A DNA stretch of 64,000 nucleotides from Verrucomicrobiia bacterium. GTDB taxonomy: Bacteria; Verrucomicrobiota; Verrucomicrobiia; Verrucomicrobiales; DEV007. The stretch is taken from positions 248,001 to 312,000 of the forward strand of contig JAUIAH010000001.1 in assembly GCA_030425385.1 (NCBI GenBank), written 5' to 3'. The position numbers were made by a program, and so were the translations under genes. Position 1 is the first letter of the stretch; every line of letters starts with the position of its first letter. This document shows, piece by piece, positions 39,058 through 42,821 of this stretch. The notes under the pieces were generated by a model. It saw only the letters and a program-made list of their open reading frames with translations, was not told the origin of the DNA and did not search any database.

Positions 39058-39543
39058 TTAGTCTTCAGGTTTCAACCGATATGTCAGAATCTGGAGCGCA
39101 TCTTCGGCGGTGAATCGGCCGATCGCACCGCAACTGTAGACGGAGATATCGACAAGACCTTGGGGATCGATCAGAAAGCCGGTGGCATGGAGATAGGTGC
39201 CGTCGTCAGAGTAGAAAGCCCCAAACCGCTTGGCAAATGCTTCGGGGCGAATCCCGTAGCCGACTGGGAACACCACTCCGGAAGCATTCACTGTCTTGCG
39301 GGCGTCTTCGAGCGTTTCTGAAGAGGCAGCCACAACCTGCACCCCTTGCGCTTCGAACTCGGCGTGGCGTTCTTTGAAATCAGCCAACTGCTGACGGCAG
39401 AAAGGTCACCAATAGCCACGATAAAGGAGCAGCACCGTCCATTTGCCGGTTGGCAATGTTAGTTGCTCGCCATTTGTGAGATCAAGGTTAAGAGACGGAA
39501 AGTTATCGTCGGAATCGAGTTTGCGGGATTCTGTCTGAGGCAT
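39058..39543 (-). CDS. Peroxiredoxin-like selenoprotein (in-frame TGA as Sec46)
   Basis: A 161-residue AhpC/TSA-fold protein if TGA at 39406-39408 is read as selenocysteine. Before it: TVLLLYRGYW. After it: PFCRQQLADFKERH in the same frame. Relatives have a cysteine at exactly this position (YRG-x-W-C-PFCR), so the TGA replaces the peroxidatic Cys, giving a U-x-x-C redox motif (Sec46, Cys49). The rest (VVAASSETLEDARKTV, GFLIDPQGLVDISVYSCGAIGRF) is intact to TAA. A hairpin with GU in its loop begins 10 bases after the TGA. ATG 39543 is chosen by family fit. It lies 20 bases after the alcohol dehydrogenase stop, so both probably share TetR control. Ordinary gene callers split it in two. Confidence 0.88.
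39372..39405 (-). promoter_or_regulatory. SECIS-like hairpin for the Sec46 codon
   Basis: Directly after the TGA: an outer stem CTTT/AAAG, an internal loop, and an upper stem GTCAGC/GCTGAT (one G-U) closing the loop AGTTG. The loop begins 17 bases after the TGA, within the 16-37 base range usual for bacterial SECIS elements, and contains GU as SelB needs. Drawn by hand, not folded by program. Confidence 0.6.
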
Positions 39544-39562
39544 GGTGTATTGCAGGTGAGTG

Positions 39563-40576
39563 TTAGTTGTCCAGAACAATGCGATACCGTGCCTTGCCAG
39601 AGCGGAGGTGCTCCATGGCATCGTTCACTTTCGCCATCGGGAAGTGTTCCGTCACCGGGGTGACATCATGACGGGCGGCAAACGCTAACATCTTGCGCAT
39701 GACAGCTGGACTCCCAACCGGGGAAGCCGTCACAGCTTGTTGGCCAAACATCATCGGAATCACATGGATACCAAGCGGTTCGGTCACCGCTCCGAGGAAG
39801 TGGAGGCGCCCGCGAGATTTGAGCGTGGCCATGTAGGCATTCCAATCGAGTGACACATTGACGGTGTTCAGAATGAGATCGAAACGTCCCGCCGCCGCTT
39901 TGATGGCATCCGGATCGCGCGAATTGATGGCGTGATGGGCGCCTAACAATTTCGCCTCCTCTTGTTTGGATTCGCTTGAGGTAAAGGCCGTCACTTCGCA
40001 TCCCCATGCACGAGCGAACTTCAACGCCATGTGTCCGAGCCCGCCGATACCGATCACGGCAACACTGCCAGTGGGTTCAATACCGAGTTCGACGAAAGGG
40101 CTGAACACCGCCATGCCACCACACAAGAGCGGCCCTGCTTTTGACGCATCGAGTCCGTCGGGAATCTTGGCGACGCTCGCGGAATGCGCCCGCACCACGT
40201 CGGCAAAGCCTCCGTGACGTCCGGCGATGGTGGGCTCCGCGGAGGAGCAGAGATTGTGATGCCCAGAGAGGCACTGGTCACAGAACATGCAATAGCCCGC
40301 ATGCCAACCGAGCCCGACGCGATCGCCGACGTCCACGTGTGACACGGCTTCACCGGTGTTGATCACCTTGCCGATCACCTCGTGCCCCGGCACCAGTGGG
40401 AAGGCGCTGATTCCCCACGCATCCTCCAGCATACTTAGATCGCTGTGGCAGATCCCGCACGACTCCACAGCGATGTCGACCGCGTTGGGTGCGGCCTCGC
40501 TCAGTTCGTACTCAAAGGGCTCGAAGGAACCGTTGGCTTCCGTGGCGGCGTAGGCGTGGACAGTTGTTGTATTCAT
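39563..40576 (-). CDS. Zinc-dependent NAD(P) alcohol dehydrogenase
   Basis: A 337-residue cytoplasmic medium-chain dehydrogenase of the CAD/YahK type. The catalytic zinc site shows [11 protein letters not shown] and GHEVIG; the structural zinc uses [15 protein letters not shown]; the cofactor loop is [13 protein letters not shown]. It should interconvert aldehydes and alcohols. ATG 40576 fits the family; a longer frame reaches 40630 but would place the palindromic operator inside the gene. It is divergent from a TetR gene with two operators between them and is followed 20 bases on by a peroxiredoxin-like selenoprotein, suggesting a response to aldehyde or electrophile stress. Confidence 0.94.
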
Positions 40577-40596
40577 GGGAATGGAATTTCCCCCGA

Positions 40597-40612
40597 CCAA
40601 CCGATCGGTTGG
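40597..40612. promoter_or_regulatory. TetR operator 1 (perfect palindrome)
   Basis: CCAACCGATCGGTTGG is a perfect 16-base palindrome, 20 bases before the alcohol dehydrogenase start. A second, imperfect copy lies 55 bases away before the tetR start. Confidence 0.8.
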
Positions 40613-40651
40613 GAGAGTATGGATGCTCATATACGAGGATCATTTGACTGT

Positions 40652-40666
40652 CAACCGATCGATTGG
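40652..40666. promoter_or_regulatory. TetR operator 2 (imperfect copy)
   Basis: CAACCGATCGATTGG differs from operator 1 by one core substitution and lies 14 bases before the tetR ATG, consistent with autoregulation. Confidence 0.75.
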
Positions 40667-40680
40667 TAGAATCTTGGATA

Positions 40681-41238
40681 ATGCGTGAGAAACTACTCGA
40701 TGCCGCTCAGACACTTGTTCAAGCGCGCGGCCTAAACGCGGTTAGTTTTCAGGATTTGGCGGATGCGGTCGGCTTGAAGAAGCCCAGCGTGTTTCATCAT
40801 TTCCCCACCAAGGATGCCCTTGCGCAGTCCTTGCTAGAGCGATGCCGTACGACTTACGGAGCACGCTACGGGGAGATCCTCGCGCACGAGGATCTCACGG
40901 CGCCCGACAAACTACGGGAGATCGCTCGCGTTTTCGATGAAGGCCTGAAGGACGACCACCTCTGCCTGCTGGGTGCCCTTGCGAACACCTGCGGGGACTA
41001 CTCCGGTGATTTGAAGAAAGAAATGCGCGAGACCGCACGTCTCAGCATCCAGCGCTACGCCGACGTCTTTGACGATGGCCGGGAATCGGGAGCACTCGAC
41101 TACAAGGGAACGGCACAAGCAGCGGCGGCGGCTTTTCTCGCGATGCTACAAGGGCTGCAAGTCCTAGCGCGGGCAAAAGGCGAAGTGGACTCATTCCTTC
41201 CAGCCGCCGAGTCCTACATTGACTCGATCTCGGCGTAA
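40681..41238 (+). CDS. TetR-family transcriptional repressor
   Basis: A 185-residue regulator. The N-terminal helix-turn-helix is clear: LLDAAQTLVQARG, then FQDLADAVGLKKPSVFHHFPTKDALAQSL. The C-terminal ligand domain (about 75-185) is variable, as in the family. ATG 40681 is chosen over the in-frame start at 40663 because it fits the family and leaves operator 2 outside the gene. The paired palindromes in the divergent promoter suggest it represses both itself and the dehydrogenase-selenoprotein operon. The ligand is unknown, possibly an aldehyde or quinone. Confidence 0.93.
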   Translation: MREKLLDAAQTLVQARGLNAVSFQDLADAVGLKKPSVFHHFPTKDALAQSLLERCRTTYGARYGEILAHEDLTAPDKLREIARVFDEGLKDDHLCLLGALANTCGDYSGDLKKEMRETARLSIQRYADVFDDGRESGALDYKGTAQAAAAAFLAMLQGLQVLARAKGEVDSFLPAAESYIDSISA

Positions 41239-41762: not shown

Positions 41763-42707
41763 TCATGAGGCAATCTTCGCGGCAAATGATCGCACGTCTC
41801 CATGATCGGCTACGTGCGCCGCCCGATGCGCGTGGACGATTCGCTCCTTAGAAACGAGAAACATGCCTGGCATCTGTAAACCATCACCACGGAGCTTCCC
41901 TCCTCGGTTCCCTTTGAGCATTGCTTGAATCCCTCTCCACCATACCGGCAACCCTAACAATTGCCTTAGAGTTCCTTTCGCGAGGTCAAAGCTGCGGTAG
42001 AGTTCGCAGTGCGGGTCACTGATGTGATCGATGTAGCCGTAGTCGATGCCCTGGATCAATGGAGGAAGCTCTTGATCATGATTCATGTGCACCAGGACAA
42101 GGCGCCAGCCCTGTTTCTCAATCCACTCTCGTTGCTCGGTCAACTGAACGAGCTGCTCGCGGCAGAAGATTCAGCCATAGTGTCGTAGGAAGCACAAGAG
42201 GACAGGCTGCTTATGCGAGGCTTCTGCCAGTGAGTCTCCGTTTGCCAAGTGATAGGAATGGAGCGCCTCTTTCATCGGCATGGCTTCAGCTCTTTGGTAG
42301 GCTCGCGTCACCATTCGACGAAACGCCGCCAGGAGGATGAGACCAAAGGGAATCCACCAGATGAGATCGTTGCTAAGAATGATGAGCCCCGCCTTTGGGG
42401 TGAACGTGCCATCATAGAGGGCCTTGGCGAACCCGAGCGGCCCGAACACTTTTCCCATTAGGCCGACGAGGACGATTGGCCAATGGCGCATAGGGTCAAC
42501 GGCCGCAATGGCGTAACCGACTCCGTAAACGCCAACGATCATCCCCACGCACTGCCAAATCTCCGGATACATTGGCCGAGGCATGCCTGCCCAATTGAAA
42601 TAGGCGTTTGGGAATAGCACGACCCAAGCTCCCCACAGGAGATTGTAGAAGGCCGCCGCCAGCAATACCCAAGTCATCCAACGGGGGGGTCTCGGTTTGG
42701 TGTCCAT
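41763..42707 (-). CDS. Membrane-anchored peroxiredoxin-like selenoprotein (in-frame TGA as Sec179)
   Basis: A 314-residue protein if TGA at 42171-42173 is read as selenocysteine. Residues 1-132 form a four-helix membrane domain (AAFYNLLWGAWVVLFP, MIVGVYGVGYAIAAVDP, NDLIWWIPFGLILLAAF). Residues about 155-314 are an AhpC/TSA_2-like domain: PVLLCFLRHYG, the TGA, then IFCREQLVQL, in one frame. Relatives carry FLRHFGC-x-x-C here, so Sec replaces the first Cys of the C-x-x-C motif (Sec179, Cys182). Downstream landmarks PGMFLVSKERIVHAHRAAHVADHGD are intact. The chosen start is ATG 42707; an upstream in-frame start (42740) is less likely. A second selenoprotein lies 2.2 kb away. Gene callers split this gene in two. 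Confidence 0.85.
42134..42153 (-). promoter_or_regulatory. SECIS-like hairpin for the Sec179 codon
   Basis: Eighteen bases after the TGA, GCTCGTT pairs with GAC-C-GAGC (one bulged C, one G-U) around the loop CAGTT. GU lies 27-28 bases after the TGA, within the bacterial SECIS range. The loop shares AGTT with the hairpin of the other selenoprotein. Drawn by hand. Confidence 0.5.
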
Positions 42708-42821
42708 GATTGGTCGTCGCACCGGCACCCTGGCCAGCATTGGATCGTTCGCATCTCATTTCGTGCGCCGACCTCACGCGCACTCGATTTGACGCCTTCG
42801 CATACAGGGTGAGAGTGGCTC

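Follow-up and report, generated by a model that had tools for sequence, protein, structure and literature searches.

The 64,000-nt window analyzed here, taken from contig JAUIAH010000001.1 of a Verrucomicrobiia bacterium, contains on its minus strand a peroxiredoxin-like (Prx-like) gene whose reading frame runs through a single TGA in the active-site motif and which very probably encodes a selenoprotein. The gene, the elements within it, and its neighbors lie at the following window positions:

39061..39543, minus strand: coding sequence of the putative Prx-like UxxC selenoprotein, 161 aa, open when TGA is read as selenocysteine (Sec, U), with the stop codon TAA at 39058-39060
39406..39408, minus strand: in-frame TGA at codon/residue 46, the presumed Sec codon, TGA in 7/7 clade genes and Cys in more distant homologs
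39397..39399, minus strand: codon of Cys49, second residue of UxxC, invariant in the alignment and matched by phmmer to AhpC's peroxidatic Cys
39379..39395, minus strand: apical hairpin GUCAGC-AGUUG-GCUGAU, a putative bacterial SECIS found by folding, kept in 7/7 genes and lying at a peak of synonymous conservation
39563..40630, minus strand: upstream neighbor, Ahr-like NADPH-dependent aldehyde reductase (NF047908, 1.9e-151, over the cut-off)
40663..41238, plus strand: divergent TetR-family regulator (PF00440, 6.3e-13)
41766..42740, minus strand: second selenoprotein candidate, SelL-related (NF040769, 144 bits, cut-off 120), with a TGA at 42171-42173

Translated with TGA as Sec, the frame reads MPQTES...TVLLLYRGYW-U-PFCRQQLADF...RLKPED, with one TGA over 161 codons and the active-site motif RGYW-U-PFC (U46-P-F-C49). 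The original prediction had described a frame continuous on either side of one TGA and a hairpin downstream; all of these are present, on the minus strand, which it had not named. Its proposal that the two joined halves would align with AhpC/TSA family members was borne out by a match to Pfam AhpC-TSA (PF00578; 1.3e-20; 74 bits, cut-off 26) that spans residues 13-131 and, thus, both sides of the TGA. The sequence comparison also supports the assigned start codon, as an N-terminal MPQ is found in 6 of the 7 genes. In the mechanical ORF list the locus appears as 109 aa starting from a TTG just past the motif; automatic annotation would give either a 45-residue fragment or a start beyond the active site, and the catalytic center would be lost.

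The same prediction placed the TGA exactly at the peroxidatic Cys. This placement is not correct: in the alignment with AhpC, which is gap-free here, LLYRGYW-U-PF-C falls on FFYPADF-T-FV-C, so that Sec pairs with the Thr of TxxC, and it is Cys49 that pairs with the peroxidatic Cys. Judged from this alignment, Sec46 opens a thioredoxin-like UxxC and does not occupy the peroxidatic position. This arrangement agrees with published descriptions, in which TxxU marks Sec-containing Prx and UxxC marks Prx-like selenoproteins (PMC1088965), and in which the peroxidatic residue of PRX-like proteins is considered to be the second Cys of CxxC (PMC3514251). The PxxxT/SxxC motif of Prx is absent, the aligned positions being R42-x-x-x-U46-x-x-C49. 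The catalytic Arg of peroxiredoxins is Arg119 in AhpC; by sequence alignment only, its place is occupied by an invariant His119. Because neither the Prx motif nor the catalytic Arg is conserved, we regard the product as a Prx-like UxxC oxidoreductase rather than a true peroxiredoxin. The five aligned proteins share no redox residues besides Sec46 and Cys49, and Cys138 is not conserved.

The AF2 model (pLDDT 79.6, pTM 0.80) has the Prx fold, with Bcp, Prx, and AhpE chains superimposing at Z 17-19 and 2.2-2.8 Å over 143-151 residues and the closest Bcp and Prx chains reaching Z 18-19, while its best Foldseek match is ResA. Together with the thioredoxin-like UxxC and the loss of the PxxxTxxC motif and Arg of Prx, the ResA match is consistent with a selenoprotein that acts as a ResA/TlpA-like thiol:disulfide oxidoreductase instead of a peroxidase. 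The extent of the fit to Prx, Bcp, and AhpE chains speaks against this, as does the stretch before the last strands, LHATGF, which appears to lack a Pro where thioredoxins have their cis-Pro. We consider the disulfide oxidoreductase a tentative but quite possible assignment; it is a sub-question that leaves the reading of TGA as Sec unaffected, and the sequence would suit either substrate, peroxide or disulfide, without separating the two.

Homolog searches covered the phylum (387 genomes) and the order (386 genomes). Six further homologs from other Verrucomicrobiota genomes (45-66% identity) all have TGA at the same codon, as do all distinct clade genes (7/7). Scanning genomes turned up a gene of 65% identity in a MAG of the Verrucomicrobiales (L026), and close copies occur twice in genome G237 and once each in G240, G475, G455, and G408, with the G455 copy specifying the same protein as L026 and the G408 copy showing 45% identity. 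Within the clade, no Cys form was found among the 386 genomes sampled from the order. In homologs from outside it, Cys occupies the TGA column in a plasmid gene of Deinococcus aetherius (45% identity, LLYRGDWCPYCRTQL), in plasmid genes of Mycobacterium kansasii and Lichenihabitans, in several Verrucomicrobiota paralogs, and in further genomes of the order. Three congeners (G453, G472, and G490) gave no match at E 1e-12, so the distribution is patchy. In every gene pair pN/pS stayed below 1 upstream of the TGA as well as downstream of the hairpin, which indicates that the sequence following the TGA is both translated and subject to selection; for most pairs dS was high or at saturation. A tree of homologs, built to see whether Sec had a single origin, shows alternating Sec and Cys rows that need at least two changes (three on the best tree); two of the more distant Sec rows sit on long branches, and their placement is unsure. 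A more distant TGA-containing Prx-like gene (L068, genome G516) has the motif RGYW-U-PFC and a different hairpin after the TGA. A homolog on a plasmid of Deinococcus sp. QL22 (L077, ~2483-2975) looks broken: the first Cys of its CxxC is Arg (GDWRPFC), its reading frame shifts within the second half, and it is annotated as two genes.

From the TGA onward, the sequence reads UGACCUUUCUGCC-GUCAGC-AGUUG-GCUGAU. The hairpin, claimed earlier to start 10 bases past the TGA with GU in its loop, does so: it has a 6-bp stem and a 5-nt loop (AGUUG) with GU at loop positions 2-3, and the loop begins 16 nt after the UGA. The published bSECIS model specifies a loop of 3-9 nt, an upper stem of 4-16 bp, a G in the first two loop positions, a UGA-to-loop distance of 16-37 nt, and an MFE no higher than -7.5 (PMC13188914). 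Here the loop, the stem, the spacing, and the G (second in the loop) all lie within these ranges, and the model fits all seven genes. The energy limit is reached when folding begins at the UGA (MFE -8.3 for 39 nt and -8.8 for 45 nt), the bare hairpin having -6.6 kcal/mol here and between -7.3 and -7.9 in the six homologs. Across eight neighboring ORFs, a hairpin of at least this placement and of -6 kcal/mol or better occurs after 7% of codons; by itself the hairpin is not distinctive and is little proof. None of the single-sequence folds clearly stood out against shuffles, and an Rfam search of 39300-39560 returned nothing meaningful.

Conservation is the more telling evidence, and synonymous sites were compared among five diverged genes. 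Where the amino acid is shared, codon identity was 0.89 at codons +3 to +14 versus 0.42 for codons outside the TGA neighborhood; this peak was the best of 152 windows, and 0 of 100,000 permutations was as high (p about 1e-5). The closing pair of the hairpin is GC, GU, or AU across the 7 genes, and the most distant gene has A-U for G-C with pairing kept, a single event. Covariation analysis found one pair changed on both sides, which was no better than shuffles and too sparse for proof. A SECIS-like hairpin, for which the original prediction had proposed a search, is thus present and conserved.

The genome itself (8.0 Mb, 74 contigs) encodes a complete Sec machinery. Specifically, tRNA-Sec scored 65.1 bits (cut-off 47) and was called by ARAGORN as tRNA-SeC with anticodon tca, and SelB, SelA, and SelD scored 283 (cut-off 242), 491 (268), and 361 bits (125), respectively. 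Every component that the original prediction had named for checking (selA, selB, selD, and tRNA-Sec) is, therefore, found in the same genome above curated cut-offs. Among the 386 genomes of the order, selA is present in 117 (about 30%) and in all of the TGA-form carriers found there (7/7), an association with a hypergeometric probability of 2e-4, a figure that ignores relatedness. The selD gene of the same genome (L018, G000:C23) itself has an in-frame TGA (CG-U-AAK), and a HAD-type hydrolase-like open frame ends in TGA just upstream of it. The tRNA-Sec gene (L001, 1501-1594) lies directly before an oxidoreductase gene matching TIGR03169 'Nterm_to_SelD' (L001, 1661-2827), a domain that owes its name to SelD fusions elsewhere.

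It is very unlikely that the TGA is read as a residue other than Sec, be it Trp in a recoded genome or the product of misreading. UGA read-through into other residues does occur in some systems. Here, however, TGA ends three of the eight long neighboring ORFs and is, thus, an ordinary stop in a code that has not been reassigned; moreover, homologs have Cys at the site, SelA, SelB, SelD, and tRNA-Sec are present, and each carrier of the TGA form also has selA. Still less probable is a pseudogene in which a Cys codon mutated to nonsense and the remaining frame has not yet decayed. Such a mutation takes only one base (TGC/TGT to TGA), and three genus mates gave no match at E 1e-12, but the same TGA recurs in seven genes down to 45% identity with high or saturated dS in most pairs, purifying selection acts on both sides of it, the hairpin is kept at synonymous sites, and the genome has the full machinery. 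A chance nonsense mutation had been judged improbable in the original prediction, and the six other genes with the same TGA and the synonymous sites kept exactly over the hairpin agree with that judgment. A sequencing or assembly error for TGC/TGT, conceivable in a draft of 74 contigs, has a negligible probability and is excluded by independent assemblies from other genera that show the same TGA (JANQMB010000252.1, G237 twice, G240, G475, and G408). A reassigned TGA, a pseudogene, and a sequencing error were, therefore, rejected on the use of TGA as a normal stop, on the conserved TGA and purifying selection, and on the independent assemblies, respectively.

The candidate selenoprotein reading is, thus, supported by tRNA-Sec, selA, selB, and selD, by the PF00578 match of the joined halves, by the conserved hairpin, and by the same TGA in other genera. 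Because the TGA is conserved, the machinery is present, synonymous sites are conserved, the hairpin fits the bSECIS model, and selA occurs in all carriers of the TGA form, the gene very probably encodes a selenoprotein with UxxC, and we infer that Sec is inserted at the TGA in the cell. In the proposed mechanism, the hairpin just 3′ of UGA46 would recruit SelB with Sec-tRNA(UCA), which would insert Sec, giving a 161-residue protein of peroxiredoxin fold with a UxxC active site. The catalytic cycle is much less certain than the selenoprotein itself, though more probable than not: most likely it would begin with attack of the Sec46 selenolate on an oxidized substrate, either a hydroperoxide or a disulfide. 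Cys49 would then resolve the selenenic acid or mixed selenosulfide so formed as an Se-S bond, to be reduced by thioredoxin or a reductant like it.

Prx-like UxxC selenoproteins were described by 2005, and the protein is a new and well-supported member of this known kind. Known representatives are the Prx-like or 'Prx-like 1' UxxC selenoproteins with PF00578 (PMC1088965, PMC2398784), also named 'Prx-like thiol:disulfide oxidoreductase' (PMC13188914). With these the protein shares PF00578, Sec in UxxC rather than TxxU, Cys homologs, and a hairpin past the UGA, a likeness drawn from published descriptions. It also resembles PRX_like2 (cd02970), i.e., Prx-like CxxC proteins that lack the rest of the Prx catalytic triad and whose second Cys is said to be peroxidatic (PMC3514251), in its Prx-like sequence and CxxC-type motif, again as judged from the published description. 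It differs in that the first Cys is replaced by Sec, and the known Sec form of the PRX_like2 family is UxxS (PMC13188914), whereas the present protein has UxxC. PrxU (TxxU) has the same fold and PF00578 domain, but Sec lies three residues earlier here and the PrxU model NF040737 scores only 30.7 (cut-off 270). ResA/TlpA proteins have CxxC at the same place and a related fold; in contrast, our protein seems to have no cis-Pro at the expected place, and no ResA model scores above its cut-off. None of the NCBIfam models scores the protein above cut-off, and the SelL-related model NF040769 reaches 35.5 bits, below its cut-off of 120.

A more speculative and rather unlikely reading is that, in Verrucomicrobiota, these genes constitute a subfamily of Prx-like oxidoreductases that uses Sec only, carries an invariant His where Prx have the Arg, and has a tightly fixed SECIS and a reaction of its own. 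If true, it would amount to a selenoenzyme with its own chemistry in organisms that keep several Prx-fold selenoproteins.

The Ahr-like gene and the selenoprotein gene lie on the same strand with a 19-bp gap from stop to ATG and are possibly co-transcribed. In the 1.5-3 kb surrounding the homologs, there was no match to any of the five neighbor proteins, and the context, therefore, offers no functional clue. The second candidate lies ~2.2 kb from the Prx-like gene, on the same strand within the window, and has a hydrophobic N-terminal part that continues in frame into a SelL-related redox domain carrying HYG-U-IFCREQL. Three genus mates (67, 61, and 49% identity) retain its TGA, and in most other orthologs of the order no stop occurs at this place. 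The lineage is little mentioned in the open selenoprotein papers searched, and it very probably uses Sec in several peroxiredoxin-fold proteins. At least three more redoxins of the same genome have one TGA in the active-site motif; three such genes have RGHW-U-PFC (L034, G000:C28), RGGW-U-PYC (L035, G000:C19), and ASW-U-AGC (L044, G000:C58).
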